This document shows, piece after piece, positions 23,724-51,107 of a stretch of 64,000 nt of DNA. Both the position numbers and the translations under genes were made by a program. The stretch lies in contig CAJXLV010000001.1 of the NCBI GenBank assembly GCA_913056185.1, forward strand, positions 62,001 to 126,000, read 5' to 3'. Numbering within the stretch: the stretch's first letter is position 1; each line of letters starts with the position of its first letter. The DNA comes from an uncultured Bacteroidota bacterium. Lineage in GTDB: Bacteria > Bacteroidota > Rhodothermia > Rhodothermales > Salinibacteraceae. The notes beneath the pieces are model-generated. The model saw only the letters and a list, made by a program, of their open reading frames with translations. It was not told where the DNA came from and ran no database searches.

Positions 23724-23782
23724 CGCCGCGGGCACCTGTCCCTCTGCCTCTCACGTGCTCGTCCACAACGCTTGTCGTTCCT

Positions 23783-26527: not shown

Positions 26528-26630
26528 GTCCGTGCGGACGCGGGGGGCCGGGGATGTCTCCGCTTCCTCGGCCCTCTGACTTCGCGTCCCCCGTGGGTTC
26601 CGATCGCTTCCTCTGTAACACCCCACCTGT

Positions 26631-27395: not shown

Positions 27396-27496
27396 GCGCG
27401 GCGGGTTCGTTGTTGGGGCTCCGGAACCCGACGGACGCGCCGGCGGGAGTGGAGCACACTCGGGCACGGGGCCGCACGGAGGCCTCCGCCCCCACA

Positions 27497-27570
27497 GCAC
27501 AGACGCCGAGCACAGACGCCGAGCACAGACACGCGGCGCAGCAGCGCGGCGCAGCAGCGCGGCGCAGCAA
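27497..27570 (+). repeat. Two short tandem repeat arrays, both with 13-bp units
   Basis: Unit GCACAGACGCCGA is repeated about 2.5 times from 27497 to 27530; unit CGCGGCGCAGCAG is repeated three times from 27532 to 27570 (last base differs). They lie between two convergent genes. No function can be stated. Confidence 0.75.
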
Positions 27571-27584
27571 AGGCCGCGCCGTGG

Positions 27585-29696
<2,112 letters not shown>

Positions 29697-29781
29697 CGGG
29701 GAGAATCGTCGACTGAGAACCGGAAATCGTGGTCGCGCTCGCTGTCACGCAACGCGAGCGGATGAGCGTGCGGCCCGCCGT

Positions 29782-30552: not shown

Positions 30553-30606
30553 GGGGACAGTGGGAAGCTCAGAGAAGCACCGTGCGCGGCGGGCGCTGTG
30601 GGGCCA

Positions 30607-31215: not shown

Positions 31216-31257
31216 TGTGGAAGAGGATCGTGGGACATAAACGATGCAGGGCAGGCG

Positions 31258-32787: not shown

Positions 32788-32817
32788 GAACAGGCAGCGT
32801 GCGTTGGTAGAAAAAGG

Positions 32818-33039
32818 TCAAGCGCGCGAAGACGGCGGGGGGTCCGCGGGGCCCCCTGATTCCTGAAACCACTGGTCCTGCGGCTCCCCCACCGGCTCGT
32901 CTTCGTCGAAGATGGCATAGGCCCCGGATCTCAGGTTATCGAAGGCCCCTTCTCGAAAGGCGTAAAACAGCACCGACAAGGTGAGGGCGGCCCCCACCAC
33001 CAGCACCACCAAAATGGTAACGAGCGGCGTGTAGCTCAT
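32818..33039 (-). CDS. ccoS: cbb3 oxidase assembly protein CcoS
   Basis: 73 residues from the ATG at 33039, which overlaps the stop of the upstream small gene (ATGA). One membrane segment (TPLVTILVVLVVGAALTLSV), then FYAFREGAFDNLRSGAYAIF and an acidic DEDEP, the pattern of CcoS: a segment ending in an aromatic/basic turn, then a short acidic tail. CcoS is needed for cofactor insertion into CcoN in known systems. An alternative reading is a CcoQ-like subunit. Confidence 0.75.
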   Translation of the reverse strand: MSYTPLVTILVVLVVGAALTLSVLFYAFREGAFDNLRSGAYAIFDEDEPVGEPQDQWFQESGGPADPPPSSRA

Positions 33040-33266
33040 GTGGTGCACCTGCGAATGACGAGAAACGGCGAGACGGCATCGGAGGACGGCGGGCGCTCCA
33101 CGCGAACAACGGCCTGTGCGGAGGAACTTGCCTCCTTCCCCGTGCGCTTCCCTGTGTCTCGGAGAACGAAATAGTACATCGCCCCCAGTAGCAGCGACGC
33201 CGCCAGAAAAAGCGCGAGCACAAGCCCCGCCGTGGCCCGCTCAACGTCGAATTGGGGATCAGACAT
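33036..33266 (-). CDS. Small single-span membrane protein, first gene of the cbb3 operon
   Basis: 76 residues from the ATG at 33266. A short acidic start, one membrane segment (ATAGLVLALFLAASLLLGAM) and a basic then mixed tail. It overlaps ccoS by four bases, so it is surely translated with the cbb3 genes. I do not recognise the family; a CcoQ- or CcoH-like accessory role is inferred from position. It is preceded by a hairpin at 33270-33287 just before the start codon. Confidence 0.65.
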   Translation of the reverse strand: MSDPQFDVERATAGLVLALFLAASLLLGAMYYFVLRDTGKRTGKEASSSAQAVVRVERPPSSDAVSPFLVIRRCTT

Positions 33267-33660
33267 GGGAACACACGGCTTTGTGTTGCTACTACTTGTA
33301 CTTACAGGTGCCAACCAATATATAGAACACAGGATCCGGCGAGAGACGGCCGGACGGGGATCCTCTTTTGGTTCTTCATGCCCAGATCACTCCCCATACC
33401 TGGGGTCACTCTCCATGCTCGGCTTGCACGCCCGGCCCATCCGTCCTTGGAGACCGGCCCGAAGGCCCCCTGGGCGAAAAAAGTTGCCTCGTGTAGAAAA
33501 CAAGAGTACGAGAGACGGCCGCTCACAGGCGTGGGAGAAAAACCCGTCGAATGACCCAAAATGTTCTGATGCGTGTCCGGACTGGGCTCCTGGCAACGAG
33601 CACGATGTGAGCCGTATTTTGTTTTCCTCGCCTCCTTTCTTGTCCGCTGCTTCCTGTCCG
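33267..33660. other. 394-base divergent promoter region
   Basis: No gene on either strand. It separates the cbb3 operon (minus) from the haem-lipoprotein gene (plus). On the minus strand, TATATATTGG about 45-55 bases upstream of the first start codon is a possible promoter core. Nothing else convincing is seen. Confidence 0.4.
33270..33287. promoter_or_regulatory. Inverted repeat before the cbb3 operon start
   Basis: AACACA-N6-TGTGTT, perfect 6-bp arms, immediately before the first start codon on the minus strand. It could be an operator or an mRNA hairpin that hides the ribosome site. Confidence 0.35.
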
Positions 33661-34272
33661 ATGCACCGACTGTCGTCCCTCCTTCTCGCTGCCGGCATCA
33701 CCGCCGTCCTGGCCGGGTGTGGCCGCTCTCCCTCCGGCGCTTCGTCGACGCCCCCCGATTCCGTCAGGCAGAAGGTGGAAACGTCCATCGCGGCCCTCAA
33801 CGAAATGCGTGAGTCGCTCGCTGCCACCATCGGCACATCCACCGTCGACAAGAGCACCTTCAAACGCGTGTGCAAACCTGTGGGCATGCGCGCGAAGCAG
33901 ATTGGGGCCACGAACGGCTGGACCGTGCAGCAGCTCGCCAAGAAGTATCGCAATCCGGCCCACCAGCTCGATCCCGAGGCACGCCGTCTCTACGAGGAAT
34001 TTGCCTCCTCCCCCGAGCTCACCGAGCGCTGGATCCGCACGACCCGCAACGGCCGCCCCGGCTGGCGCTACGCGCGCCGCATCCCCGTGCGGTCTACCTG
34101 CCTCTCCTGCCACGGCCCCAAGGAAGACCGGCCCGCCTTTGTCAAAAAGGGCTATCCCAAGGATCGCGCCTACGGCTTTGAGGTGGGCGATGTGCGCGGC
34201 ATCTACGCCGTTTTTGTGCCCACTTCCGCCCCGATCGATACCGCGAATGCCGCCCTCCCCGCCGTCCACTGA
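33661..34272 (+). CDS. DUF3365-type haem-binding lipoprotein
   Basis: 203 residues from the ATG at 33661. Lipoprotein signal SLLLAAGITAVLAGC (Cys20), a helical region, then IRTTRNGRPGWRYARRIPVR and the haem motif CLSCHGPKEDRP near residue 147. The C-terminal GYPKDRAYGFEVGDVRGIY is the conserved DUF3365/Tll0287-like end. It is a monohaem c-type cytochrome anchored in the periplasm, possibly a redox sensor or electron carrier. It is divergent from the cbb3 operon and precedes the DUF1641 and SQR genes, so it may carry electrons between them. Confidence 0.85.
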   Translation: MHRLSSLLLAAGITAVLAGCGRSPSGASSTPPDSVRQKVETSIAALNEMRESLAATIGTSTVDKSTFKRVCKPVGMRAKQIGATNGWTVQQLAKKYRNPAHQLDPEARRLYEEFASSPELTERWIRTTRNGRPGWRYARRIPVRSTCLSCHGPKEDRPAFVKKGYPKDRAYGFEVGDVRGIYAVFVPTSAPIDTANAALPAVH

Positions 34273-34386
34273 GCCCTCACTGCAACATTTGCAACGGAAT
34301 TGAAACACGTGCGAGAGTTGTAAATACAGGTCCTTACGAACTGGAAACTCCTCTCCGTCTTCCGCCGATCACACATCCCCGGGCCC

Positions 34387-35310
34387 ATGGAGCACCGCCC
34401 CCAGACAGATGGCGCAAACGCCCTGGAAAAGCGCTTACAAAACCCCGCAACCCGCGAGAAGCTGACGCATCTCCTCGACCGGCTCGATACCATCGAGGAA
34501 GCCCTCGATACGCTCGAGCGGCTGGAGCAACAGATGCCGGCCCTCCTCCAGACCACGGCCGATGTGGTGGACGAAGAGCTCACGCGAGCGGCGGACCGCG
34601 GGGTCGTGCTCGATGAGCGTGCCGGGGAGGCCCTGCACCTCGCCGAAGCGCTGACGGAGCCGGAGACGGTGGAGGTGCTCACCGCCCTGATCGACCGCCT
34701 CGACCGGCTGGAACAGCTGGCCGCCCTCGCCGAGGAGCTGCCCGACGCGGCAAGGGTCACGGTCGATACCATCGACGACGCCCTGACCCGTGCGGCCGAC
34801 CGAGGCGTCGTGGTGGACGAGCGCGCCCGGGAGGGGCTCCGGCTGTTGGAAGCGCTCACCGACCCCGAGACGGCCGCGGCCCTGGAGAACATTCTGGACC
34901 GATCCGAACAGCTCGACGAACTTACGGCCCTGGCGGAAGACGCGCCCGCCGTCATTGCCACCGTCGTGGACATTCTCGACGCCGAATACGCCCGTGCTGC
35001 CGCGCAGGGCTACGACCCGGAGCGCACTCTGCGCCAGGCCTTTGGCGCCCTCAGCCGTCTTGGCGAGCTGTTTCGCACCGACGAGTTTGAGGCCCTGCTC
35101 GATTCTGGGGTGCTCGATCCCCAGGCCCTGCAGGTGGTGGGCAGCCTCGGTTCCGCACTCGTCGACACCCAGAAAGAAGCCAGCCGCGGCGATACGCCCA
35201 CCCAGGGCGTCTTCGGGCTTCTCGGGGCCCTCCGCGACCCCGACGTGCAGCGAGCCGTCGGCTTCATCACCACACTCGCCAAAAAATTCGGCCGCAACCT
35301 GCGTGCGTAG
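34387..35310 (+). CDS. DUF1641 protein with three internal repeats
   Basis: 307 residues, highly acidic and helical. Three tandem units of about 65-70 residues: 24-94, 95-162 and 163-226. Each has a helix DRLDxxEx, a strand-like linker, then ADRGVVLDERAGEAL or ADRGVVVDERAREGL, then LTEPET or LTDPET; the third is diverged. The C-terminal part (GVFGLLGALRDPDVQRAVGF) is the DUF1641 signature. DUF1641 genes commonly sit beside SQR-type oxidoreductases, as here (75 bases before the SQR gene), so it is probably a soluble partner of that enzyme. The molecular role is not known. Confidence 0.8.
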   Translation: MEHRPQTDGANALEKRLQNPATREKLTHLLDRLDTIEEALDTLERLEQQMPALLQTTADVVDEELTRAADRGVVLDERAGEALHLAEALTEPETVEVLTALIDRLDRLEQLAALAEELPDAARVTVDTIDDALTRAADRGVVVDERAREGLRLLEALTDPETAAALENILDRSEQLDELTALAEDAPAVIATVVDILDAEYARAAAQGYDPERTLRQAFGALSRLGELFRTDEFEALLDSGVLDPQALQVVGSLGSALVDTQKEASRGDTPTQGVFGLLGALRDPDVQRAVGFITTLAKKFGRNLRA

Positions 35311-35384
35311 CGGCCTCATTCCGTTCCCCCAGTTGTCCCCCTGTTCTCTCTCCAACGTCCTCCTCTCAACCACGCCCCAGACCC

Positions 35385-36584
35385 ATGACCGACTCGCACC
35401 ACGTTCTCATCGTTGGCGGCGGCACCGCCGGCCTTACCGTTGCCTCGCAGCTGCTGGAGCGCGACGATCCCCCGGAGGTGGCCATCCTCGACCCCGCCGA
35501 CACGCACTATTACCAACCCCTTTGGACGCTCATCGGCGCCGGGGTCTTTCCAAAAGAAGAATCGGCCCGGCCCATGGGCGAGGTGATACCGCGCGGGGCC
35601 ACCTGGATCCAAGACCGCGCCGTGGAGCTGGACCCCGATAACAACGCCGTTGCCACCGCGGCCGGCGACACCTACGGCTACGACTACCTCGTGATGGCGG
35701 CCGGGATTCAAATCAACTGGGACGGCATTCCGGGCCTCGCCGAGTCGGTGGGACGGCCCGAGACGGGAGTGGTCAGCAACTACAGCTACGACACCTGCGA
35801 GACCACCTGGGACGCCCTCCAGCAGTTTCCCAAAGGCGGCACCGCCCTCTTCACCGAGCCCACCACGGGCGTTAAGTGCGGCGGCGCGCCCCAGAAAATC
35901 ATGTATCTGGCCGACGAGGCCTTCCGCCGACAGGGCGTGCGCGACGGCAGCCGCATCGCCTTCATGAAGGCCAAGGGCGCCTTGTTCTCGTCGAAGCCCT
36001 ACGAGGAAACGCTCTACGACGTGGTGGAGCGTAAAGGCATCGAGGTCAACCTGAACACGGAGCTGACGGAGATTCGGCCGGACGCAAAGGAGGCGGTGTT
36101 CAAGAACCTGGATACGGAGGAGAGCAGGACCGTTCAGTACGACCTGCTCCACGCCGTGCCGCCGATGAGCGCGCCCGACTTCATTGCGCAGAGCCCCCTC
36201 GCAAACGAGGAGGGCTGGGTGGAGGTCGACGCCGGCACGCTGCAGCACACCCGCTACGACAACGTCTTCGGGATCGGCGACAACTCCAGCCTCCCCACCT
36301 CCAAGACGGGCGCGGCCATCCGCAAGCAGGCGCCGGTGCTGGTGGACCACCTAACGGCGACGATGCACCACACTACGCCGATCAACGGCACGTACAACGG
36401 CTACACCTCCTGCCCCCTCGTCACGGGCTACGGCAAGTTGGTGCTCGCGGAGTTTGACTACGACAAGGAGCCGCAGGAAAGCTTCCCGTTCGACCAGACG
36501 CAGGAGCGCTACAGCATGTACGCGCTGAAGGCGTACGGCCTGCCGCGCATGTACTGGAACGGCATGTTGAAAGGGCGCATGTAG
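35385..36584 (+). CDS. sqr: Sulfide:quinone oxidoreductase, type II-like
   Basis: 399 residues. FAD motif VLIVGGGTAGLTVASQLLER at the start; THYYQPLWTLIGAGVF near residue 44 is a typical SQR block. Two candidate redox cysteines: Cys165 in TTGVKCGGAPQK and Cys343 in YTSCPLVTGYGK, both in contexts seen in the SQR type II/SQRDL group. FGIGDNSSLPTSKTG is the second FAD motif. The C-terminus FDQTQERYSMYALKAYGLPR should hold the membrane-associating region. It oxidises sulfide to persulfide or sulfane sulfur and reduces quinone, on the inner membrane. DUF1641 is directly upstream. Confidence 0.9.
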   Translation: MTDSHHVLIVGGGTAGLTVASQLLERDDPPEVAILDPADTHYYQPLWTLIGAGVFPKEESARPMGEVIPRGATWIQDRAVELDPDNNAVATAAGDTYGYDYLVMAAGIQINWDGIPGLAESVGRPETGVVSNYSYDTCETTWDALQQFPKGGTALFTEPTTGVKCGGAPQKIMYLADEAFRRQGVRDGSRIAFMKAKGALFSSKPYEETLYDVVERKGIEVNLNTELTEIRPDAKEAVFKNLDTEESRTVQYDLLHAVPPMSAPDFIAQSPLANEEGWVEVDAGTLQHTRYDNVFGIGDNSSLPTSKTGAAIRKQAPVLVDHLTATMHHTTPINGTYNGYTSCPLVTGYGKLVLAEFDYDKEPQESFPFDQTQERYSMYALKAYGLPRMYWNGMLKGRM

Positions 36585-36599
36585 TCCCCCGTGCCGAGC

Positions 36600-36626
36600 G
36601 CCCGGGGCCGGTTACGCGCCCCGGGC
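36600..36626. terminator. GC hairpin between convergent genes
   Basis: Perfect 9-bp arms GCCCGGGGC/GCCCCGGGC around CGGTTACGC-type loop sequence. The stop codon of the minus-strand GntR gene lies in the loop. It serves as a bidirectional end between sqr and the GntR gene; no T-tract is seen. Confidence 0.5.
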
Positions 36627-37421
36627 CTCCGGGTCTTCGGCAAACACCGGTTCAAACTCGCGCAGCGGCATGCCGTGCTCGGCCGCACTGCGCCGTTCCG
36701 GGTCGCGGGCCAGTTCCAGTTCATAGGCCACGCGGTCGCTCCGGTAGTAGCGCCGCTGGAAGTAGACGCGCTTGTCTCCTTCCGTCAGCGACAGGCGCTC
36801 AATCAGGAGCAGCGCTTCTCCCTCCGCCACCCCGAGCGCCTCTGCCACCGCCGCATCGGCGTTGGCCGCTGTAATTCGGTACTGCCCCCGCAGTACCGGA
36901 ATGTCGTACTCCGTCTCCAGAATGTGGTAGATTGTTTCCCGCTCCAGGTCGTGCCCCTCCAGGAGTTGGGCATAGAACATGGGCAGCCAGGTGCGGTCGT
37001 ACGCCACCGGGCGCCCGTCGCCGAGGCGGAGGCGGTCGAGCCGCATCACCTTCTGATCATCCGTCTGCAGCTGCACAGCCACGAGAGACGGGGGCGTTTC
37101 GGGGGCCCGGTGCCGCACCTCCGACGACGCAGTCAGGCCGGCCTGTGCCATGTCCTGTGCAAAATCCGTCAGGCGCACCAGCCCCTGCGCCGCCCGACGC
37201 TCCTTTACGAACGACCCCAGGCCCTGCCGGCGGTAGATGTAGTCCTCGTTCTCCAGGGTTTGCAGGGCCCGGCGCACCGTCACGCGGCTTACGTCAAAGC
37301 GCGCGCCGAGCTGCTTTTCGGAGGGCAGCTTCTCGTCAACCTCGTACCCCCCCTCCTCAATTTTCTCGCGCAGCCAGTCACTGATCTGTTCGTGGCGGGG
37401 ACGTCCCGATTCCAGCTCCAT
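36612..37421 (-). CDS. GntR-family regulator (HutC/UTRA type)
   Basis: 269 residues from the ATG at 37421; the frame is open further upstream without a signal of coding. The winged helix occupies residues 1-75: ISDWLREKIEEGGYEVDEKL, PSEKQLGARFDVSRVTVRRA, LENEDYIYRRQGLGSFV. The C-terminal UTRA domain (about 95-250) has LLLIERLSLTEGDKRVYFQR. It senses a small ligand and represses or activates nearby genes. It lies between two SQR-type genes, so sulfur or quinone metabolism is a likely target. A GTTATAAC palindrome is at 37479-37486. Confidence 0.88.
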   Translation of the reverse strand: MELESGRPRHEQISDWLREKIEEGGYEVDEKLPSEKQLGARFDVSRVTVRRALQTLENEDYIYRRQGLGSFVKERRAAQGLVRLTDFAQDMAQAGLTASSEVRHRAPETPPSLVAVQLQTDDQKVMRLDRLRLGDGRPVAYDRTWLPMFYAQLLEGHDLERETIYHILETEYDIPVLRGQYRITAANADAAVAEALGVAEGEALLLIERLSLTEGDKRVYFQRRYYRSDRVAYELELARDPERRSAAEHGMPLREFEPVFAEDPEARGA

Positions 37422-37450
37422 GACGTCTCGTCGTTGGTGGGAAGACAAAT

Positions 37451-37486
37451 GCCCCGCAGTGCTACGGGGCCTTGTGTAGTTATAAC
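37451..37486. promoter_or_regulatory. Palindrome and hairpin before the GntR gene
   Basis: GTTATAAC (37479-37486) is a perfect 8-bp palindrome 58 bases before the GntR start, in an AT-rich patch. Between it and the start codon is a 6-bp hairpin GCCCCG/CGGGGC at 37451-37470. Autoregulation is plausible but not shown. Confidence 0.35.
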
Positions 37487-37710
37487 AGGTAAAGACAGGA
37501 TTTGAGTTCCACGTTCCTGTTGTTCTGGCCTCATCAGAACATTTGCCCCCCGAACCTGACTGGTTTTTTCTGCCTGGTGGAAGCACTCATTACTGACCAG
37601 GCCGTCATTCGTTTGCCGTATCCTGAAATTCCTTGGGCGCCCCCTCGTGTCGGAGCGCAAGGCCGCCCTCGGATTCGTTGCGTCCTGGCATGCCCCTCTC
37701 GCTCGCTGCC

Positions 37711-38985
37711 ATGCCCACGTCTCCGCACATTCTCGTTCTCGGCTGTAACTTTGCCGGCCTCACGACGGCCCGCTACATTCGCGCGTTCGCGGGCGACGAG
37801 GTCGACATTACCTGCGTCGACCGGACTCCGTACCTCACGTTTGTCCCCAACATCCCCCTGGAGGTGTGGCACAACAACAATCCCGCCGAAGAGCTGCACC
37901 TGCCGTTCGTGAAGTTCCTGGACCGGGACGACATTCGGTTCATCCACGCAGAGGTGCAGGGGATTGACGTAGACGGGCGGTCGGTGGAGTACACGCCGGT
38001 CGAGCGCTCCGGCTCGGCCGCCGAGTCGGTAGGGTACGATTTCCTCGTAATTGCGCTGGGCAACAACCTGGCGTTCGAAGAGATCGAGGGCTTTGCCGAG
38101 CACGGCCACACCCTCACCGACACCTACTACGGCGAAAAGCTCCGACGCTACCTGCACGAGGGCGGGTACAAAGGCGGGCCCATCGCTGTCGGCTCCGACC
38201 GGTTCGTGCAGGGACACCACCCCGACCTGCCGCTTCTTCCGGAAGCTAAGGCGGCGTGCGAGGGGCCGCCCGTCGAGATTGCGTTCTCGATGGCCCACTG
38301 GCTGGAGAAGCACGAGATGGGGGACGCACGCTCGATTACGCTCTTTACGCCGGCCGAGGTGATCGCCGAGGACGCCGGGGAGAAGATCCTCGACGAGCTG
38401 CTGCCGATGGTGGAAGACCTGGGATTCGGCTATCGCGCCGACACGGAAGGCATCGAGCGTCTCTACGAGGACGGCATTGAGTTCGAGGACGGAAGCAGCG
38501 TGGAGGCGGAGCTGAAAATCATCTTCCCCAACTGGACGGCCCACGACGTGGTGAAGGACCTTCCCATCACGGACGACCAGGGCTTCGTCGTGACCGGCCT
38601 CCAGATGCGCAATCCGGACTACCCGGAGGTCTTTGCCGTCGGCGACGCGGCGTCCGTCACTGTGCCCAAGCTCGGCTCGCTGGGCCACAAAGAGGCGGAG
38701 ATCTGCGCCCAGATGCTGGGGCGGGCGGCCGGGGCACACGAGCCCGACGAGCCGATCCCGTCGCTGGAGCCGGAGGTCATCTGCATGGGCGACATGGGCG
38801 GGCGCAAGGGGTTCTACATGCACACGAACGAGTGGTGGGGCGGCGACACGAGCATCCTCAAGATTGGCTATACGCCGCACGCGCTCAAGATGGGATTTAA
38901 GACGATCTACTACACCACCGGCGGCAAGGTGCCCACGTGGGGCCTGCCGCTCTCGGAGTTCGTGGGGGACCACGCACTGGTGTGA
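37711..38985 (+). CDS. SQR-like FAD-dependent sulfide:quinone oxidoreductase family enzyme
   Basis: 424 residues from the ATG at 37711 (an in-frame ATG at 37690 is possible). FAD motif HILVLGCNFAGLTTARYIRA, VDRTPYLTFVPNIPLE, DFLVIALGNNLAFEEIEG and VFAVGDAASVTVPKLG. Candidate active cysteines: AACEGPPVEIAFSMAHWLEK, whose placement matches the ACYGP block of type I SQRs, and VICMGDMGG near residue 357. The C-terminus is amphipathic (YTPHALKMGFKTIYYTTG) and should bind the membrane. Divergent from GntR. Sulfide oxidation is likely, but related flavocytochrome c or other quinone reductases are alternatives. Confidence 0.82.
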   Translation: MPTSPHILVLGCNFAGLTTARYIRAFAGDEVDITCVDRTPYLTFVPNIPLEVWHNNNPAEELHLPFVKFLDRDDIRFIHAEVQGIDVDGRSVEYTPVERSGSAAESVGYDFLVIALGNNLAFEEIEGFAEHGHTLTDTYYGEKLRRYLHEGGYKGGPIAVGSDRFVQGHHPDLPLLPEAKAACEGPPVEIAFSMAHWLEKHEMGDARSITLFTPAEVIAEDAGEKILDELLPMVEDLGFGYRADTEGIERLYEDGIEFEDGSSVEAELKIIFPNWTAHDVVKDLPITDDQGFVVTGLQMRNPDYPEVFAVGDAASVTVPKLGSLGHKEAEICAQMLGRAAGAHEPDEPIPSLEPEVICMGDMGGRKGFYMHTNEWWGGDTSILKIGYTPHALKMGFKTIYYTTGGKVPTWGLPLSEFVGDHALV

Positions 38986-39918: not shown

Positions 39919-40056
39919 CGTGACGCGTGAGGAGTGAAACGTAAAGAGTGAGGCGTGTAGAAGAACGCACGAGGGAGTAGAGGGGCAGGGGCGATTCCCC
40001 TTCCTGTCGCGTCGCCATGCCTCACGTTTCACGCATCACGCCATCACGCATCACAC
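39919..40056. repeat. Heptameric foldback island A
   Basis: Left arm 39919-39960 is six 7-nt units: CGTGACG, CGTGAGG, AGTGAAA, CGTAAAG, AGTGAGG, CGTGTAG. Right arm 40021-40056 is CTCACGT, TTCACGC, ATCACGC, an 8-nt unit and ATCACAC, the reverse-complement theme. The arms can pair imperfectly across 60 bases. It lies just before the PEP synthase start. Confidence 0.8.
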
Positions 40057-40097
40057 CTTCCTCCCACCCCCACGATCCTCAACACAAGCCTGCAGTG

Positions 40098-42511
40098 ATG
40101 ATGAGTGACACAGCCGTTGCCAAAAAGCAAACGTACGTCCGCCGGTTCGACACGCTCAGCAACGAGGACGTGCCCCTCGTGGGCGGCAAGAATGCCTCCC
40201 TCGGCGAGATGATCGGCGCGTTGAAGGACGAAGGCATCCGTGTGCCCGATGGGTTTGCCACCACCGCCGACGCCTACTGGCACTACCTGACGGTCAACGA
40301 CCTGAAGGACGAGATCTGGGCCCATCTGGAGGCGCTGTCGGACGGCGAGCAGTCGCTTGGCGACACCGGCGCCGCCATCCGCGAGCTGATTCGTCACGGC
40401 ACCATGCCCTCCGACATGGAAACGGCCATTCGGGATGCCTACCACGCGCTCAGTGCAGCGGACGATGCCGACGCCACTGATGTTGCGGCGCGCAGCAGCG
40501 CCACTGCCGAGGACCTCCCCGAAGCCAGCTTCGCCGGGCAGCAGGAGAGCTTTTTGAACGTGCGCGGCGACGAGGCGGTGCTGGAGGCCTGCAAGAAGTG
40601 CTTTGCGTCCCTCTTCACGAACCGCGCGATCACGTACCGAGAAGAAAAGGGATTTGACCACATGCAGGTGGCCCTGTCGGTCGGCATCCAGAAGATGGTG
40701 CGGGCGGACAAAGCGGGCGTGATGTTTACCATCGACACCGAGAGCGGCTTTCCCGACAACGCCATTATCAATGCCGGGTGGGGGCTCGGGGAAACGGTGG
40801 TGAAGGGCACCATCAACCCGGACCAGTACACGGTCTACAAGCCGTTCCTGGACGACGACTCGCTCACGCCCATCGTGGGCAAGATGAAGGGCGACAAGGC
40901 CCAGAAAATCGTGTACGCCGACGGGGACGGCGAGCCCACGAAGACGGTCGAGACGACTGAAGAAGAACGCAAATCCTTCGTCTTGTCCGACGACGAGATT
41001 CTCACGCTGGCGCGATGGGGGGCGCGGATTGAGGAGCACTACGACCGCCCCATGGACATCGAGTGGGCGCGCGACGGGGAAACCGAAGAGCTGTTCATCT
41101 TGCAGGCCCGCCCCGAGACGGTGCAGTCGCGGCGGGCGGCGAGCGCGCTGCGCACGTACCGGCTTCAGGAAACGGGTGAGCGGCTGGTGACCGGCCTCAG
41201 CATTGGGCAGTCGATTGCGGAAGGCGAGGTGCAGCTCATCCATAGCGCCGATGAGATCGATGAATTTGAGGAGGGCGGCATCCTGGTGACGGAAATGACG
41301 GATCCGGACTGGGGGCCCATCCTGAAAAAGGCCGCGGGCATTGTCACCAATCACGGCGGCCGCACCTCCCACGCCGCCATCGTGAGCCGGGAGCTCGGCA
41401 TCCCGGCGGTCATCGGCACCGGAAACGCGACCGAGACGCTTACCGACGGGCAGGAGGTCACGCTGTCGTGCGTAGAGGGCACCGACGGGTACGTCTACGA
41501 GGGGCTGCTGGACTACGAGACGGACGACCTGGACCTCGAGGCCCTACCGGACACGGACACGAACATCATGCTCAACGTAGCGAGCCCCGCCGCGGCCCTC
41601 ACCTGGTGGCGGCTGCCGGTGGAGGGCATCGGCCTGGCCCGCATGGAGTACCTCGTCAACAACGTGATCCAGGTGCACCCGATGGCCCTGGTTGCCTTTG
41701 ACCAGGTCGCGGACGAGTCCGCGCGGGACCGCATCGAGGCATTGACGCGAGGCTACGACGAGAAGGGCGAGTACTTTGTGGACCAGCTCTCGCAGGGCAT
41801 CGGCGCCATTGCCGCGGCCCAACACCCGCACCCCGTGATTGTGCGCCTCAGCGACTTTAAGACGAACGAGTACGCCGACCTCGTGGGCGGGCAGGCCTTC
41901 GAGCCGCACGAGGAGAACCCGATGCTGGGCTGGCGGGGCGCCTCGCGCTACTACAGCGACGCCTACCGCAAGGGGTTCGCCCTGGAGTGCCGCGCCCTCA
42001 AGCGGGTGCGCGAGACAATGGGCTTCACGAACGTCGTCCTCATGATTCCCTTCTGCCGCACGCCGCAGGAGGCGGATCGGGTGCTGGAGGTGATGGCCGA
42101 AAACGGCCTGAAGCGCGGCGAGAACGGGCTTGAGGTGTACGTCATGGCCGAGATCCCGTCGAATGTGCTTCAGGCCGACGAATTCGCCGAGCGGTTCGAC
42201 GGCTTCTCCATCGGCACCAACGACCTGACGCAGCTCGTCCTGGGCGTGGGACGCGACGCCGAGCGGCTCGCGCATCTGTTCGACGAGCGCACTCCCTCCG
42301 TCAAGCGGATGGTGAAGGCGCTTATCGATCAAGCCCACGCTGATGGCCGCCCGGTGGGCATCTGTGGGCAGGCCCCCAGCGACCACCCCGACTTCGCCGA
42401 GTTTCTGGTGGAGGCGGGCATCGACTCGATCTCGGTGATTCCGGACAGTGTGGCCGATGTGATTCAGCACGTGGCCGAAGCCGAGACGCGGAAGCGCGAA
42501 TCGACGAATTG

Positions 42512-42512
<1 letters not shown>
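40098..42512 (+). CDS. ppsA: Phosphoenolpyruvate synthase (pyruvate, water dikinase)
   Basis: 804 residues from ATG at 40098 (the next codon is also ATG); the frame is open from 40017 through the repeat island, so that earlier ATG is unlikely. Domains: N-terminal ATP-grasp (NASLGEMIGALKDEGIRVPDG, then AARSSATAEDLPEASFAGQQ), central phosphohistidine domain with GGRTSHAAIVSRELGIPAVI (His near residue 425), C-terminal PEP/pyruvate TIM barrel with GFSIGTNDLTQLVLGVGRD and the catalytic Cys in GICGQAPSD. It makes PEP from pyruvate, ATP and water for gluconeogenesis. It stands alone between two foldback islands, upstream of the ATPase operon. Confidence 0.95.
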
Positions 42513-44437
<1,925 letters not shown>

Positions 44438-44488
44438 AGCGCATGGGACGCGCGGGGACGCGGAGATGGAGGAAAAAGCGAGGCGGGA

Positions 44489-44580
44489 TGCGTGAGGAAT
44501 GATGCGTGAGGAGTGAAGCGTGAGGAGTGAGGATCACGGCTGAAGTCACGAATCACGGGTCACGCATCACTCTCCACACG
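44489..44580. repeat. Heptameric foldback island C
   Basis: Left arm 44489-44530: TGCGTGA, GGAATGA, TGCGTGA, GGAGTGA, AGCGTGA, GGAGTGA. Right arm 44545-44579: GTCACGA, ATCACGG, GTCACGC, ATCACTC, TCCACAC. The arms are reverse complements in theme and keep 7-nt phase. It lies between atpC and the atpQ/I gene. Confidence 0.85.
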
Positions 44581-44629
44581 TCAACATGAGAATTAGAGGC
44601 AGGCCCCCCTCAAGTGAGGCATTGGACCC

Positions 44630-44926
44630 ATGGAGGAGAGCGACCCCGAACAGCGCGAGCAATTCGCCGAGAAGATTCGGTCGAAGGAGACGCGGAAGCA
44701 GCGGGCGCGGGACGAGCCGGAACGGGGCATTTTGTTCGGGATGGGCATGTTCGGGCTGGTAGGCTGGTCGGTGGCCATTCCCACACTGTTGCTGCTGGCG
44801 CTGGGCATCTGGATCGACGCTCGGGTCGACAGCCGGTATTCCTGGACGCTGATGCTCCTGGTCCTGGGCATTGGGCTGGGCTGCCTGAATGCGTGGTACT
44901 GGGTTCGCGAAGAAAGCCGCCGATAG
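44630..44926 (+). CDS. N-ATPase AtpQ/AtpI-like membrane protein
   Basis: 98 residues. A basic, charged N-terminus (REQFAEKIRSKETRKQRARD), then two membrane segments (GLVGWSVAIPTLLLLALGIW and TLMLLVLGIGLGCLNAWYW). This is the AtpI/AtpQ pattern found as an accessory gene in ATP synthase operons, with a role in c-ring assembly or Mg2+ handling. In N-ATPase operons AtpQ normally comes just before AtpR; here an antiporter gene lies between, starting 5 bases after this stop. Confidence 0.82.
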   Translation: MEESDPEQREQFAEKIRSKETRKQRARDEPERGILFGMGMFGLVGWSVAIPTLLLLALGIWIDARVDSRYSWTLMLLVLGIGLGCLNAWYWVREESRR

Positions 44927-44931
44927 ACCTC

Positions 44932-46152
44932 ATGGAAAGCGCCCACACGATCCACATTTTGGTGCTCGGGGTCATGATCGTGCTGGTGCTCTTGTTGCGC
45001 CCCGCCCTCGACCACATCGGCGTGCCGCCGCTGGTGGGATACTTCGTGCTCGGGTTTGCTCTGCGCCTTGCCGATGCCCAGTGGTCGCTCCTGGATGCGA
45101 CGGGCCACGAGATCTTCGCATTTTTGGGCTCGGTCGGCATCGTGGTGCTGCTGTTTCGCGTGGGGCTGGAGAGCGACCTGCCGGGGCTCGTGGAGCGACT
45201 GCCTCCGGCCAGCCTGGTGTGGGGGAGCAATGTGGCGATCTCGGGCGGGGTGGGCTACGGGGCCGCCGCATATGGACTGGGATGGCCCCTCGTGCCCAGT
45301 CTCTTCGTCGGCGTGGCGCTCACGGCTACAAGTGTGGGAGTCGCGGTGGCTCTGTGGGACGAGGCCAATCTGCTCAAGACGGACGACGGCGAACTCATGC
45401 TGGACGTGGCGGAGCTGGACGATGTCTCGGGCGTCGTGCTGATGGGCGTTTTGTTCACCCTCGCTCCCGTCTTCCATGCGAATCCGGCAGCTTCGCTCAT
45501 TCCCCTTGCGGCTCAGACATTGGGCGGCTTTGCGCTCAAGTTTGCGGCGTTTACGGCTGGGTGCATCGCGGTTTCGTTGTACGTGGAGGAGCCCCTTACG
45601 GCGTTCTTCGAGCAGATCCAGCGTTGGCCCGGCACAATCATGGTGGTCCTCGGCACCGGGATGGTGGTGGCGGCTATTGCCAGCCTGCTCGGCTTCTCTC
45701 TCGCCATCGGGGCCTTCTTCGCCGGCCTCATCTTCAGCCGAGACCCAAAAGCGGTGAAGATGGAGACGTCGTTCAACGCGTTCTATCCCCTCTTTGCTGC
45801 GTTCTTTTTCATCGACATCGGCCGGCGGATAGACCCAACAGCACTGGAAAGCGCGCTGGGACCGGCTCTGGTCTTGCTGGCCGCGGCTGTGCTCGGCAAA
45901 GGACTGGGCGTTCTGTTGCCGGCCCTGGCCCTCACCCGCAGCTCGGGCGCACTGCTGCTGAGCCTCAGCCTTGTGCCCCGCGCCGAGATTATGCTCATCA
46001 TCATGCAACGGGGCCTCGACCTGGGTCCATGGGCCGTTCCGCCCGAGCTGTTTGCCCAAATGGTGCTTGTCTCTGCCGGGACAATGCTGCTGGTACCGCC
46101 CCTCGTCCGTCCTCTTTTCTCGCATCTGCCCTCTCCCCCCAATCCGCTGTGA
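44932..46152 (+). CDS. CPA2-family cation/proton antiporter inside the ATPase operon
   Basis: 406 residues from the ATG at 44932, with about 12 membrane segments. VPPLVGYFVLGFALRLADAQ and GIVVLLFRVGLESDLPGLVE are the family's N-terminal blocks. The double-Asp motif is ELDDVSGVVLMG near residue 162, where CPA2 exchangers bind the cation and protons; DD is linked with electrogenic exchange. SLVPRAEIMLIIMQRGLDLG is the conserved C-terminal region. It starts 5 bases after atpQ/I and its stop overlaps the GTG of atpR, so it is part of the operon. Sodium/proton exchange is inferred; potassium is possible. Confidence 0.92.
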   Translation: MESAHTIHILVLGVMIVLVLLLRPALDHIGVPPLVGYFVLGFALRLADAQWSLLDATGHEIFAFLGSVGIVVLLFRVGLESDLPGLVERLPPASLVWGSNVAISGGVGYGAAAYGLGWPLVPSLFVGVALTATSVGVAVALWDEANLLKTDDGELMLDVAELDDVSGVVLMGVLFTLAPVFHANPAASLIPLAAQTLGGFALKFAAFTAGCIAVSLYVEEPLTAFFEQIQRWPGTIMVVLGTGMVVAAIASLLGFSLAIGAFFAGLIFSRDPKAVKMETSFNAFYPLFAAFFFIDIGRRIDPTALESALGPALVLLAAAVLGKGLGVLLPALALTRSSGALLLSLSLVPRAEIMLIIMQRGLDLGPWAVPPELFAQMVLVSAGTMLLVPPLVRPLFSHLPSPPNPL

Positions 46153-46460
46153 TCTCCTGGCCCGCTGCTCTTTTTGCCTTGTTGGTTGGCGCCATTCTGG
46201 GCCTCGGCTACTTTGGCGGCCTCTGGCTTACTGTGCACTGGGTGGCTCACCGGGGCGGCTCTGCCACACTCCTCCTGGGCAGCTTCGTGGCCCGCACAAT
46301 CCTGGCCCTGGGCGGCTTTTTGCTTCTGCTGCGGTGGACGGCGCGCTGGGAGCTGCTCGCGCTCGCCCTGCTGGGGTTTGTTGCCCTGCGCACCCTGCTG
46401 CTGCGACGCTGGGGCCTGAAGCCCTCTTCTGGATCCGTTCCCTCTCGTCATGGAAATTAG
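46149..46460 (+). CDS. atpR: N-ATPase AtpR membrane protein
   Basis: 103 residues from GTG at 46149, which overlaps the antiporter stop (GTGA). Three membrane segments: ALFALLVGAILGLGYFGGLW, LLLGSFVARTILALGGFLLL and ELLALALLGFVALRTLLLRR. Conserved basic residues lie at the membrane ends. AtpR is found only in N-ATPase operons and is thought to help c-ring assembly with AtpQ. Its 3' end overlaps atpB by 11 bases. The translated length and topology fit the family. Confidence 0.85.
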   Translation: MISWPAALFALLVGAILGLGYFGGLWLTVHWVAHRGGSATLLLGSFVARTILALGGFLLLLRWTARWELLALALLGFVALRTLLLRRWGLKPSSGSVPSRHGN

Positions 46461-47169
46461 CCCCGATCAAATTGTCTACTGGGAGTGGGGTGTCGTCACC
46501 ATCAACGCCACCCTTGTCTTCTCGTGGGTGGTGATGGCGGTGCTCGCGGGCGGGGCGTGGCTCGTGACGCGAACGCTGACTGCGGGGCCGTCTCTCTCTC
46601 GCTGGCAGAACCTGCTGGAGGTGGTGGTGGAGGGGATCCTCGACCAGATCGAGGCGGCCAGCCTGCAAAATCCCCGGCGCTACCTGCCGTTCGTGGGGAC
46701 GCTCTTCCTCTTCATCGTCACGTGCAACGTGCTCGACATTGTGCCCGGGTTTGAGCCGCCCACGGCGTCCCTCACGACGCCCGCTGCGCTCGCGCTCTGC
46801 GTCTTTGTCGCGGTGCCGGTCTACGGCGTCATGAATCGGGGCGCAAAAGGCTACTTCACGCACTACGTGCGGCCCACCGCCTTCATGCTCCCCTTCAACA
46901 TCATCGGCGAGGTGTCGCGCACTGTCGCCCTGGCGATCCGCCTCTTTGGCAACATCATGAGCGGCAACCTGATCGCGGCCATCCTGCTGAGCCTGGCACC
47001 GCTGTTCTTCCCGGCCGTCATGCAGGCGTTCGGCCTGCTGATCGGCGTCATCCAGGCGTACGTGTTTGCCGTGCTGGCGCTGGTCTACATCTCCTCGGGG
47101 GCCCGCGTGCAGCAGGAGGGCACCCCCGCCGACGCCCCCACGGACGAGACGAGCGTGCAAGCATCATGA
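46450..47169 (+). CDS. atpB: N-type ATP synthase subunit a
   Basis: 239 residues, five or six membrane segments. The essential Arg of the half-channel is in RTVALAIRLFGNIMSGNLIA. FVGTLFLFIVTCNVLDIVPG and FGLLIGVIQAYVFAVLALVY are the family's other conserved blocks. It forms the ion path next to the c-ring. Its start overlaps the end of atpR. Confidence 0.94.
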   Translation: MEISPDQIVYWEWGVVTINATLVFSWVVMAVLAGGAWLVTRTLTAGPSLSRWQNLLEVVVEGILDQIEAASLQNPRRYLPFVGTLFLFIVTCNVLDIVPGFEPPTASLTTPAALALCVFVAVPVYGVMNRGAKGYFTHYVRPTAFMLPFNIIGEVSRTVALAIRLFGNIMSGNLIAAILLSLAPLFFPAVMQAFGLLIGVIQAYVFAVLALVYISSGARVQQEGTPADAPTDETSVQAS

Positions 47170-47284
47170 TGGGTGTCCTCACACCTGCGGCTCCGCGTGG
47201 GGCCCCAAACACGCCGGAAGGCCCACACGCCAATGCAGCAAGTCACACTCCGCTGCCTCACTTTCCATCCCTCCACAGACTGAC

Positions 47285-47554
47285 ATGGACGACATAAGCT
47301 TGATTGGCATGGTGTCGATCATCGTTGCCGGGTTTACCATTGCCATCGGCTCCATCGGGCCGGCGCTCGGCGAAGGGCGTGCGCTCTCGCAGGCGCTCAA
47401 CGCGATGGCCCAGCAGCCCGACGAGGCCGACACCATCACCCGCACCCTCTTCGTCGGACTGGCCATGGTGGAGTCAACGGCCATCTACTGCTTCGTCGTG
47501 GCCCTCATCGTCATCTTCGCGAACCCGTTCTGGGACTACGTGATCGGTGTCTGA
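47285..47554 (+). CDS. atpE: N-type ATP synthase subunit c, with sodium-site residues
   Basis: 89 residues from the ATG at 47285; two membrane helices. Helix 1 contains GPALGEGRALSQAL: a Glu stands where Na+-type c subunits have Gln. Helix 2 has VESTAIY, in which Glu, Ser, Thr and Tyr (ES-T-x-x-Y) match the Na+-binding set known from Ilyobacter-type rings. Two carboxylates per hairpin are typical of N-ATPase c subunits. This supports Na+ rather than H+ transport, by family knowledge. The gene is flanked by gaps of 115 and 178 bases, the second holding island D. Confidence 0.93.
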   Translation: MDDISLIGMVSIIVAGFTIAIGSIGPALGEGRALSQALNAMAQQPDEADTITRTLFVGLAMVESTAIYCFVVALIVIFANPFWDYVIGV

Positions 47555-47600
47555 TCATCCGATCGTCTCGGAAGGATTCCGCACAAGTGTGCTTAACCCG

Positions 47601-47728
47601 CACGGTGAAGCCTGGTCCGTATTTCGTGTTGCGTATTGCGTAACGACCGGGATTGCTCACTTCACCTGCTTCACCGTGACATGCCGAAATACGGAATACG
47701 AGATACGCAATACGAGATACGCAATACA
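47601..47728. repeat. Heptameric foldback island D
   Basis: Outer 11-bp perfect inverted repeat CACGGTGAAGC (47601) and GCTTCACCGTG (47668). Left heptads at 47618-47645: CGTATTT, CGTGTTG, CGTATTG, CGTAACG. Right heptads at 47687-47728: AAATACG, GAATACG, AGATACG, CAATACG, AGATACG, CAATACA. The arms are complementary in theme. It lies between atpE and atpF. Confidence 0.85.
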
Positions 47729-47732
47729 GAAC

Positions 47733-48560
47733 ATGCAGATTGACTGGTTCACATTCGGCGCCCAGATCGTCAATTTCCTGCTCCTGATTGGGCTCCTCAA
47801 GCGGTTCCTCTACGGCCCCATCCTGGAGGCGATGGACGCGCGGGAGGCGCGCATCGCATCGCGGCTGGCAGACGCCCGCGAGAAGCAGCAGGAGGCGCAG
47901 GCCGAAAAAGAGACGTACCAGTCCCTGCAGGCAGACCTCGAGGAGGCGCGGACGCAGGCCCTGGCCGAGGCCGAACAGGAGGCGCAGGCGCGGCGGCAGG
48001 AGTTGCTCCACGAGGCCCGCGAGGAGGTCGCGCACCTGGAGCGAGAGTGGCGCGAGGCCCTGGAGCGGGAGCGCGAGTCGTTTCTGCGCGAGCTCTCGGA
48101 GCGGGCGGTCGCGGAAACGATTGCCGTGGCTCGGCGCGCCCTCCGCGACCTGGCCGACGTCGACCTTGAGGAGCAGGCCGTCGAGGTCTTTCTGGAACGG
48201 CTCCGGACGCTCACCGAACAGGAGCGCACGGCGCTGACGGAGGCGCTCCGAAGCAACGACCACGGCGCCGGGGTCCACAGTGCCTTCGCCCTGTCGGAGG
48301 CCCATCAGGCCCAGATCCGCGAGCACCTGGACGAGCAGCTGGGGGGGAAATCCGACGTGGCCTTCGACACCGACGCCGAGGTGGGCTTTGGGGTGGAACT
48401 GCGGGTGGGGGAACGGAAGGTGGCCTGGAGCCTCGACAGCTACCTCGACGCCCTGAAGGCCCGCGTCCGCGAGCGCCTCGACGCGGAGCTGCGGAAGGCC
48501 TCCCCCGAGGGCGCGGACGCCCCCGTTGGCCCGCCCGGATCGACGAACGAAGAATCGTGA
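47733..48560 (+). CDS. atpF: N-type ATP synthase subunit b (long form)
   Basis: 275 residues from the ATG at 47733, right after the foldback island. One membrane segment ([20 protein letters not shown]), then about 170 residues of charged coiled coil ([20 protein letters not shown]) and a globular C-terminal part ending [18 protein letters not shown]. Standard b subunits are near 160 residues; the extra part probably replaces delta, which is absent from the operon, as in other N-ATPases. It forms the peripheral stalk. Confidence 0.9.
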
Positions 48561-48652
48561 CGACGACGGTCGGCGGACGGCGGAGAAGACCGTATCGCTG
48601 CGGCCTGCCGGCTGCCGTCCGCCATCCACGAACACACCGGGGCCGTTCCCAA

Positions 48653-50236
48653 ATGACTCACGAGACGCCGATGAACCGAGACCGTCTCAACACCGATCCA
48701 ACCCCCAAAATTACAGCGTGGCTCGACACCACGTTCGATGTCCTGGCCACGGCGCGGGAGCACGCGCCCCCCGGCCCGGTCGTGGAAGAGGTGGGCACAG
48801 TGACCCATGTGGGGGAGGGCATTGCTCGGGTGCGGGGCCTTCCGTCCGTCCAATCGGAGGAACTGGTGCGGTTTGAGGGCGGCGTGCGGGGGATGGCGTT
48901 CAACCTGGACCCGGACACGGTGGGCGTCATCCTGCTGGACGAGAGCGAGCGACTGGAGGCGGGCGACGAGGTGCAACGAACAGGGCGCATCTTGGACGTG
49001 CCCGTGGGCCCGGAGCTGCTCGGCCGCGTCGTCGACGCCCTCGGCCGCCCCCTCGACGAGCAGGGCGCCGTTCGGGCCGGGGAGCGGTGGCCGGTGGAGC
49101 GCGAGGCGCCTCCCATCATGGCGCGCGCCCCGGTGGAGACGCCCCTGCAGACGGGCCTCAAGGTGGTCGACGCCCTCATCCCCATTGGCCGCGGGCAGCG
49201 CGAACTCATCCTGGGGGACCGCCAGACCGGCAAGACGGCCGTGGCGCTCGACACCATCCTCCACCAGCACGACACGGAGGTCCTCTGCGTCTACTGCGCG
49301 GTGGGCCAGCGAAATTCCGCCGTCGCCTCCGTCATTGCCGACCTGCGCGAGCACGACGCCCTCGACTACACCACCGTTGTCGTGGCGAGCGGCGAGGGGC
49401 CGCCCGGCCTCCAATTCGTCGCCCCCTACGCCGCCACCTCCATCGCCGAGTCGTTCATGGCGCAGGGACGCGATGCCCTCGTGGTGTACGACGACCTCAC
49501 GCGCCACGCCCGCGCCTACCGCGAGCTGTCGCTTCTCCTGCGCCGCCCGCCGGGCCGCGAGGCCTTTCCCGGCGACATCTTCTACATCCACTCGCGCCTC
49601 CTGGAACGCTCCACCCACCTGAAGGACGAGCACGGCGGGGGCTCGCTCACAGCCCTGCCCATCGTGGAGACGGAGGCGCAGAACATCTCGGCCTACATCC
49701 CCACGAACCTCATCTCGATTACCGACGGGCAGATTTTTCTGTCGCCGACCCTCTTCCAGAAGGGCGTGCTCCCGGCCGTCGACGTGGGGCGCTCGGTGTC
49801 GCGGGTGGGCGGCAAGGCGCAACGTCCGGCCTACCGGGCGCTCACCGGCGAGCTCCGGCTCTCGTACTCGCAATTTCAGGAGCTGGAGGCCTTTGCCCGG
49901 TTTGGCACGCGGCTCGACGAAGAGACGCGCGAGACCCTCCGCCGCGGCCGTCGGGTCCGGGAGGTGCTGAAACAGCCGCAATACGCCCCCCTTCCCGTCG
50001 CCGAGCAGGTGGCCGTCCTCCTCGCCACCACCGAAGGGCTGTTCGACGCGCTCGAGCCCGAGCAGGTGGGCGAGGCCGAACGGCGCGTCCGCGACGCCAT
50101 CCGCGAGGCGCACCCGGCCCTGTGCGACAAGATCCACGACGGCACGAACCTGACGGACGAAGACCGGGCGGCCCTGCTGGAGACGGCACGCGAGGCCCTC
50201 AACCCAATAACCGAGCCCACCGATGCAGACGCTTGA
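48653..50236 (+). CDS. atpA: N-type ATP synthase alpha subunit
   Basis: 527 residues from the ATG at 48653. A GTG at 48557 overlapping the b stop is another start, giving 559 residues with an odd Arg-rich leader. Features: [17 protein letters not shown], Walker [34 protein letters not shown] and SRLLERS (the alpha block). Non-catalytic nucleotide-binding partner of beta. It ends overlapping atpG by 14 bases. The extein-like order b-alpha-gamma without delta is the N-ATPase layout. Confidence 0.93.
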
Positions 50237-51107
50237 GACGCTCCGCCGCCAGATCAACAGCACCGAGAGCCTGCACTCGGTCGTGCGCACCATGAAGGTG
50301 CTGTCGATGACCAGCATCCGGCAGTGCGAGGCCGCCGTCGAGTCGCTCTCCGACTACTACCGAACGGTGCGGCTGGGCCTGCGGATTGCCCTCCGCCACC
50401 GCCCGCGCGAGGGACGCGTACTCCCCACCACCGCCACGGGCCGCCAGGGCGTGATTGTGTTCGGCTCGGCGTGGGGCATGTGCGGGCGCTTCAACGAAAC
50501 CCTGGCAGCGCACGCGACGGAGCGGCTCGGGGAGGCGCAGCGCCCGCGGACGGTGCTCGTGCTCGGGGAGTACGTGGGGGACGCCCTGGAGGCGGAGGGC
50601 CTTGCGCCCAACCTGCAGGCGGCGGGCCCGGAGTCGGTGGAGGGCATCACGGCCCGCGTGCAGGAGCTGCTCATCACCATCGAGCAGTGGCGGCTGGACG
50701 AGCAGATCGACCGGGTGCTGCTCTTCTACAACCAGTCCACGCCCGGCGCCGGCTACGCCCCGACGACGCAGCGCCTGCTGCCCCTCGATAACGAGTGGCT
50801 TGCTCAGCTGGAGCATGAGGACTGGCCCACCCGCATGGCCCCCACCTTTCGGGGCGATTGGGAGACGCTGTTCGCGTCGCTGGTGCGGCAGTACTTTTTT
50901 GTGTCCCTCTACCGCGCATGTGCAGAGTCGCTGGCCAGCGAGCACGCAAGCCGCCTGGCGGCGATGCAAATGGCCGAGGACAACGTGCAGGAGCGGCTCG
51001 ACGACCTCCAGGGGCGATTCCACCGCACGCGCCAAAACGCCATCACCGAAGAGCTGCTCGACATTACGTCCGGCTTCGAGGCGCTGCGGACCGAAGACAC
51101 GGCGTAG
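50223..51107 (+). CDS. atpG: N-type ATP synthase gamma subunit
   Basis: 294 residues. N-terminal helix [20 protein letters not shown] and C-terminal helix [20 protein letters not shown] form the rotating coiled coil; the middle Rossmann-like domain has [20 protein letters not shown]. Slightly diverged from F-type gamma (GSAWGMCG instead of GSDRGLCG), as in N-ATPases. It is the last gene of the operon. It overlaps the atpA end. Confidence 0.92.

Follow-up and report, generated by a model that had tools for sequence, protein, structure and literature searches.

A gene for a 406-residue CPA2-type cation/proton antiporter was identified inside a complete N-type (alternate F-type) ATPase operon of an uncultured bacterium of the Bacteroidota (family Salinibacteraceae), where it lies between atpQ and atpR. 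The analyzed stretch of DNA (GCA_913056185.1, contig CAJXLV010000001.1, positions 62,001 to 126,000 of the forward strand) comprises 64,000 nt and is called the window; all coordinates refer to it. The insertion is real and beyond chance, because the antiporter gene is kept beside atpR in a genome of the same genus, with a ratio of nonsynonymous to synonymous substitution rates (dN/dS) of about 0.14, and because an antiporter gene also occupies this position in one genome from a different family and on a plasmid of a cyanobacterium. The N-ATPase operon with its embedded antiporter is a new operon arrangement built from known families. It is reasonably probable, in our estimate, that it encodes a module for sodium extrusion that draws on two sources of energy, ATP in the N-ATPase and the proton gradient in the antiporter.

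The antiporter gene within the N-ATPase operon

Genes were called as open reading frames combined with NCBIfam and Pfam profile matches. The operon covers 42616-51107 on the + strand and has the gene order atpD, atpC, atpQ, antiporter, atpR, atpB, atpE, atpF, atpA, atpG:

42616-44043, + strand: atpD, N-ATPase β subunit (TIGR03305, 769.9 bits, cut-off 752)
44036-44437, + strand: atpC, ε subunit, overlapping atpD by 8 nt (TIGR03166, 140.8 bits, cut-off 100.1)
44438-44629, no strand: atpC-atpQ gap of 192 nt with a 14-nt repeat in three tandem copies, seen in the sequence and by a repeat search
44630-44926, + strand: atpQ (AtpZ/ATPase gene 1; TIGR02230, 121.2 bits, cut-off 46.7; PF09527)
44932-46152, + strand: predicted CPA2-type cation/proton antiporter, 406 aa (PF00999, E-value 1.5e-36, residues 18-396)
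46149-46460, + strand: atpR, GTG start (PF12966, 51.5 bits, cut-off 26)
46450-47169, + strand: atpB, subunit a (TIGR03306, 329.8 bits, cut-off 302.1)
47285-47554, + strand: atpE, subunit c, with the Na+-type motif GPALGEG, VESTAIY (TIGR03322, 152.2 bits, cut-off 130.85)
47733-48560, + strand: atpF, b subunit with a C-terminal part resembling delta (TIGR03321 and OSCP matches; reading frame scanned from 47724, ATG at 47733)
48653-50236, + strand: atpA, α subunit (TIGR03324, 836.8 bits, cut-off 750.5)
50223-51107, + strand: atpG, γ subunit (TIGR03323, 330.3 bits, cut-off 282.35)

The β, ε, a, c, b, α and γ subunits all scored above the NCBIfam 'alternate F1F0 ATPase' cut-offs. AtpR scored slightly below the cut-off of TIGR03165 (51.2 vs. 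55.5 bits), though above that of Pfam PF12966. The reading frame of the antiporter is intact; it starts 5 nt past the end of atpQ, and its TGA stop and the GTG start of atpR share the 4-nt GTGA at 46149-46152. The first-pass annotation of the window, which had singled out exactly the span from the atpQ start to the atpR end (44630-46460) and placed a full CPA2-type gene between these two genes, was thus correct. It had also called the inserted gene co-translated, and the stop/start overlap suggests that antiporter and atpR would be translated together. A promoter and terminator scan of the operon gave 0 promoter-like and 4 terminator-like sites, compared to 0.7 and 4.3 in shuffled sequences.

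Dibrova et al. (2010) is reportedly the source paper for the N-ATPase operon atpDCQRBEFAG. The window keeps this order for all nine genes and departs from it through the 406-aa antiporter gene that follows atpQ and precedes atpR; outside the operon, the genome has a second alpha gene of the F type. As the first-pass annotation had stated, the published order has no extra gene between Q and R in the operon descriptions of PMC8620254 and PMC9927469. The ProAD survey recognizes an N-type locus by the two N-specific genes that lie between ε and a (PMC11738941). This is a search rule and not a biochemical definition, and the window has three genes at this place, atpQ, antiporter and atpR; a rule that expects two genes there misfits antiporter-bearing loci. 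In the main text of the survey, the words antiporter and exchanger do not occur (PMC11738941).

In Acaryochloris sp. 'Moss Beach' plasmid pMB02, as in the window, an antiporter gene sits between atpQ and atpR and ppsA lies upstream, whereas the N-type operon of Picosynechococcus PCC 7002 differs in having no antiporter. The operon of Aphanothece halophytica is said to consist of nine genes without an antiporter. The N-type operons of Aphanothece and Acaryochloris are thought to aid salt tolerance, according to a passage of PMC8949462, and the account of the A. marina operon given there makes no mention of an antiporter. A literature search, with Dibrova 2010, Soontharapirakkul 2011 and supplements outside its reach, returned no account of an antiporter in an N-ATPase operon. 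A public plasmid record has these genes annotated, so the arrangement has already been sequenced, if not discussed. The unfamiliarity noted in the first-pass annotation holds for descriptions in the searched literature, but the arrangement is not unique, as it is found in three of 35 operons of the phylum and on the Acaryochloris plasmid.

Recurrence and history of the antiporter slot

N-ATPases were located by a match to AtpR (PF12966), so that the operon sample is AtpR-defined. Matches were found in 30 of 394 sampled genomes of the phylum (29 above cut-off) and in 18 of 244 genomes of the class (17 above cut-off). The union above the cut-off amounted to 35 operons, 17 in the class and 18 outside it, and all were compared by synteny. 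Two matches below the AtpR cut-off were dropped: G173 (22.6 bits, internal stop, no atp genes found in its stretch L059) and G471 (23 bits, no atp genes found in L092).

This survey, which the first-pass annotation had proposed and which was run in the phylum, identified an antiporter between atpQ and atpR in 3/35 operons, those of the window, G005 (L045) and G145 (L051), and none in 32/35. The carriers all belong to the 17 class operons (3/17); outside the class the count was 0/18. G005 is a metagenome-assembled genome of the same genus, whose contig begins within the antiporter gene with atpQ out of view, and its antiporter is 74-75% identical to that of the window. G145 is a genome of another family, with an antiporter 43-44% identical to the window's. 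The distance from atpQ to atpB is 1527 nt in the window and 1525 nt in G145, compared to 298-490 nt in the 32 other operons, which leaves space for atpR alone.

The slot is also filled in another phylum, in the annotated N-ATPase operon of Acaryochloris sp. 'Moss Beach' pMB02 (L083). An overlap of antiporter and atpR was seen in four of four cases, with 4 nt in the window, L045 and L083 and, with the start chosen, 17 nt in L051. The spacing between atpQ and the antiporter is 5 nt in the window and 4 nt in L051, and an 8-nt overlap is present in L083, the three cases with a visible atpQ. Some close relatives lack the insertion (G026, G016 and G022, and G009 with a relative downstream of atpG), which is one half of what the first-pass annotation had named as speaking against its reading, the other half being separate transcription of the antiporter.

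Phyla other than that of the window were reached via plasmids. A tblastn search with subunit a gave 78 records, of which 60 were listed, and nine of the 78 loci were inspected, eight chosen by their subunit-a match and Acaryochloris by its antiporter match. No antiporter was present among the annotated genes of the eight other plasmid N-ATPase loci inspected. One further inspected plasmid carries an unrelated antiporter gene. Searching the plasmid collection with the antiporter gave 274 records, and among the 60 listed only Acaryochloris pMB02 exceeded 27% identity (45.3%). The reverse search with the Acaryochloris antiporter found one other plasmid record only, covering 23% of the query.

Relatives of the antiporter are rare: at an E-value of 1e-30 they occur in just 7/394 sampled genomes of the phylum, and at 1e-40 in 1/92 genomes of the family of G145, which is G145 itself. 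A peptide-pattern scan of genome contigs, which reaches close relatives only, matched 28 stretches with one true relative (L002). Among 148 relatives, atpR is present in 4/5 genomes with this antiporter group and in 5/143 genomes without it (Fisher p 3e-5, uncorrected for kinship and with the group defined after the tree). In the 19-kb stretch of one phylum operon (L064, from G227), matches were limited to atpD, C, Q, R and B, and none was obtained to atpE, F, A and G.

Between the window and G005, the dN/dS of about 0.14 was obtained with a synonymous divergence (dS) of 1.31, which is near saturation, and the antiporter is under purifying selection. The dS values of the antiporter (1.31) and atpR (1.15) are higher than the 0.32-0.71 of the four other genes compared. 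The GC content at third codon positions (GC3) is 0.79 for the antiporter and 0.74 for atpR, compared to 0.84-0.93 for the other subunits. The higher dS and lower GC3 of these two genes may reflect a different history or weaker codon selection. Pairwise identities of AtpQ track the host group, and AtpR evolves too fast to judge its exchange with the antiporter.

A tree of the ATPase was built from five subunits of 27 operons (all 17 class operons, five of the 18 outside the class and five from plasmids). Antiporter-bearing operons are found at three places on it, each beside operons without an antiporter. A single clade of antiporter-bearing operons was rejected (approximately unbiased test, p 4e-61), with three changes needed. 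The trait showed no clustering on the ATPase tree beyond shuffled labels (71/500 as low). In the tree of 11 antiporters, the four operon antiporters and those of G009 and G004 form one group with a support of 100/99, separate from five stand-alone antiporters. The order inside this group is unresolved, with long-branch warnings for L069, L051 and L083 and an odd composition of L051 and L083. A clade of the operon antiporters alone was unsupported: two changes are needed, one change sufficed in 6% of bootstrap trees, and 32/500 shuffles were as low.

Judged by these trees, one antiporter lineage is tied to N-ATPase loci. Ancestral presence with repeated loss and transfer between operons into the same slot are both compatible with them. 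As operon evolution goes, the use of a single slot by a single antiporter lineage across three lineages of the ATPase is an unusual pattern. The gene might be a passenger, an independently useful antiporter gene caught in the operon with no functional tie to the ATPase, and this would fit its patchy distribution (3/35 operons), the lower GC3 of the antiporter and atpR, the existence of stand-alone relatives and the unclustered trait on the ATPase tree. However, the same slot is filled in three operon lineages, the antiporters belong to one well-supported group, the junctions overlap and the gene is under purifying selection, and a passenger is considered quite improbable. At the other extreme, the atpQ-atpR slot could be a docking place used recurrently by a single antiporter lineage, with a product that works with the N-ATPase as a coupled Na+/H+ transducer and is perhaps an accessory part of the complex. 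A cell could then exchange proton-motive force, sodium-motive force and ATP via one co-made unit; this is conceivable, if rather doubtful.

Predicted ions and the proposed sodium-extrusion module

By sequence, the best solved relative of the antiporter is NapA of Thermus thermophilus, with an E-value of 1e-18 for the single sequence over near full length. With a profile of eight relatives, the E-values were 8.9e-40 for NapA and 9.2e-20 for KefC. D163-D164 of the window antiporter align with D156-D157 of NapA and K323 aligns with the NapA transmembrane lysine K305, while the unwound-helix motif is ATSV (residues 132-135). The DD, K and ATSV residues are thus in register with those of NapA (4bwz, 5bz2, 5bz3), from which the window antiporter differs in its distant sequence, in being encoded inside an ATPase operon and in an extra conserved acid, E161, beside the DD pair, where NapA has Val. 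In terms of CPA positions, V135 is at position 4, V159 at position 5 (not Glu), D163-D164 at positions 6 and 7 and K323 at position 8, the pattern of the CPA2 NapA-like rule. Masrati et al. state, in passages of PMC6181914, that Asp at position 6 with Lys at position 8 marks electrogenic clades and that a non-polar position 4 in CPA2 is tied to Na+ selectivity. Since all these residues are present, the window antiporter is probably an electrogenic Na+/H+ antiporter.

Alternatively, the antiporter could swap K+ or another cation for H+, with the N-ATPase moving Na+ or H+ and the antiporter keeping charge, volume or pH in balance. Its subfamily is also related to KefC (8bxg), which is in the same CPA2 superfamily (E 9.2e-20), a stand-alone antiporter relative lies ∼1.8 kb from trkH in L066 of the same genus, and ion calls from motifs are uncertain. 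In KefC, however, QD, a Thr in the unwound helix (Val in NapA) and RCK domains are described in PMC11150392, whereas the window antiporter has DD and Val, with Val at position 4 and Asp at position 6 being the Na+-type and electrogenic states. A profile scan of the antiporter reported no RCK or TrkA_N domain, and it thus lacks the marks of a Kef-like K+/H+ exchanger (DD, not QD; Val, not Thr; no RCK/TrkA domain reported). Exchange of K+ is therefore judged unlikely. The antiporter scored 109 bits against TIGR00932, with a cut-off of 238.3. Two PF00999 genes were found in the 94%-complete genome, the operon antiporter and one with a TrkA_N domain.

The sodium-site residues that the first-pass annotation had pointed out in subunit c are present: helix 1 has a glutamate (GPALGEG) and helix 2 has ESTAIY, so that the two carboxylates and ESTxxY are both found. 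A two-carboxylate Na+ motif was solved in the c-ring of Fusobacterium, as outlined in PMC3692424, and an 'ESTxxY' domain is cited for N-ATPases in a passage of PMC6688271. In the wider set, four N-ATPase c subunits (L058, L063, L081, L082) have a helix-1 Gln instead of Glu, and all 16 c subunits read in f27 have ESV or ESI and not EST. The ion specificity predicted for N-ATPases may therefore differ between members of the phylum.

A second F-type alpha gene, 53% identical over residues 45-525, is present elsewhere in the genome (G000:C25; the alpha gene alone was examined). Because of this gene, it is suggested that a conventional F-type enzyme is also present and that the N-ATPase would be an additional enzyme. 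The same gene argues against a sodium cycle for ATP synthesis, in which the antiporter would convert the respiratory proton gradient to a Na+ gradient and the N-type enzyme would be a Na+-driven ATP synthase. Such a cycle would agree with the Na+-type c motif combined with the motif of an electrogenic Na+-type antiporter, and the Aphanothece N-type enzyme reportedly makes ATP from a Na+ gradient. However, N-ATPases are presumed to be pumps in the text of the ProAD survey (PMC11738941), and for the Burkholderia pseudomallei enzyme, with a ring of 17 c subunits and an ion-to-ATP ratio of 5.7, the authors infer a pump (PMC5376962). A sodium cycle for ATP synthesis is thus held to be improbable.

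In the proposed module for sodium extrusion, the N-type rotary ATPase with its Na+-type c-ring would export Na+ using ATP, and the NapA-like antiporter would export Na+ using the proton gradient, probably with two H+ in per Na+ out. Through the overlapping stop and start, the translation of atpR would be coupled to that of the antiporter, and on this proposal antiporter and ATPase would be made together from one transcript. For an antiporter with a 2 H+ : 1 Na+ stoichiometry, Na+ export is favoured as long as the chemical gradient of Na+ is smaller than the sum of the membrane potential and twice the pH gradient. Because of this thermodynamic relation, the pair could cover both energized and energy-poor states: during strong respiration the antiporter would hold the sodium gradient, and during weak respiration the N-ATPase would do so, provided that the cell has ATP or stored carbon. 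Whether N-ATPases move Na+ or H+, and whether they act as pumps or as synthases, is still debated. An operon with both the ATPase and a predicted Na+ antiporter speaks, at the genomic level, for a sodium role in these hosts and offers a simple test system.

That the exchanger acts on the ion of the ATPase, as the first-pass annotation had proposed, is plausible because its binding-site motif is Na+-type and electrogenic. The proposal is weakened on the side of the ATPase, as the c motif is the same in the 14 class operons without an antiporter.

Several observations weigh against the two-energy-source module. The full Na+ motif of subunit c is found in 17/17 class operons, with or without an antiporter, and the presence of the antiporter is therefore not linked to the ion predicted for the rotor. 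The antiporter is absent from the operon in 14/17 class operons, and the N-ATPase therefore does not need it. The G009 member of the antiporter group lies outside the operon, ∼1.7 kb downstream of atpG and past a universal-stress gene on the opposite strand, and G004 has a member of the group but no AtpR match. The alpha gene of L083 (13511-14907) is split among three frames, with no annotation listed for it, and for this reason the Acaryochloris pMB02 operon may be broken, misassembled or affected by sequencing errors. An AlphaFold2 model of the antiporter, made from a two-sequence alignment, reached a mean pLDDT (predicted local distance difference test score) of 33.9, too low for the model to be usable, and the lack of clustering on the ATPase tree counts on the same side. 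Residue-based ion calls can also fail: the B. pseudomallei N-ATPase, with two carboxylates and predicted to be Na+-coupled, was found to be H+-selective (PMC5376962). Its subunit c has Thr62-Met63 after the glutamate in the description given there, and the full c motif may matter for ion selectivity.

Neighbouring genes and repeats

The neighbourhood of the operon in the window loosely fits a saline setting with energized and energy-poor states. Upstream, the stretch 23720-38985 contains a cluster for a cbb3-type oxidase, with a copper-type P-type ATPase, as well as a TauE-type permease, two sulfide-quinone-reductase-like genes, both below the model cut-off, and a two-domain universal stress protein at 23720-24724. 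Acidic proteins occur in salt-adapted cells, and 30 selected window proteins were rather acidic, with a median isoelectric point of 5.1. The directly upstream neighbour, which is not a subunit gene, is the following:

40017-42512, + strand: phosphoenolpyruvate (PEP) synthase gene, ppsA (TIGR01418, 1117 bits, cut-off 739.75)

A PEP synthase gene was also found upstream of the N-ATPase in 11 of the 34 other operons of the phylum and on the Acaryochloris plasmid (L047, L049, L052-L055, L057, L058, L083, L089-L091), with some of the other contigs ending too early to judge. No PEP synthase match was obtained in the fetched stretches beside the remaining operons, those of G145, G401, G026, G016, G022, G005 and f27, with the stretches of G005 and G022 cut by contig ends. 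In G145 (L051, 872-5252), a Cpn60 chaperonin gene and a cation P-type ATPase gene precede the N-ATPase in place of PEP synthase.

Short repeats around GCGTGAGGAGTGA were observed at 44480-44530 and also at 39924, 42579 and 44553. They are located near the start of ppsA, ahead of atpD and in the atpC-atpQ gap. With up to 3 mismatches, 15 matches were counted in the window compared to 7.2 expected, and 15 was reached in 1/100 shuffles.

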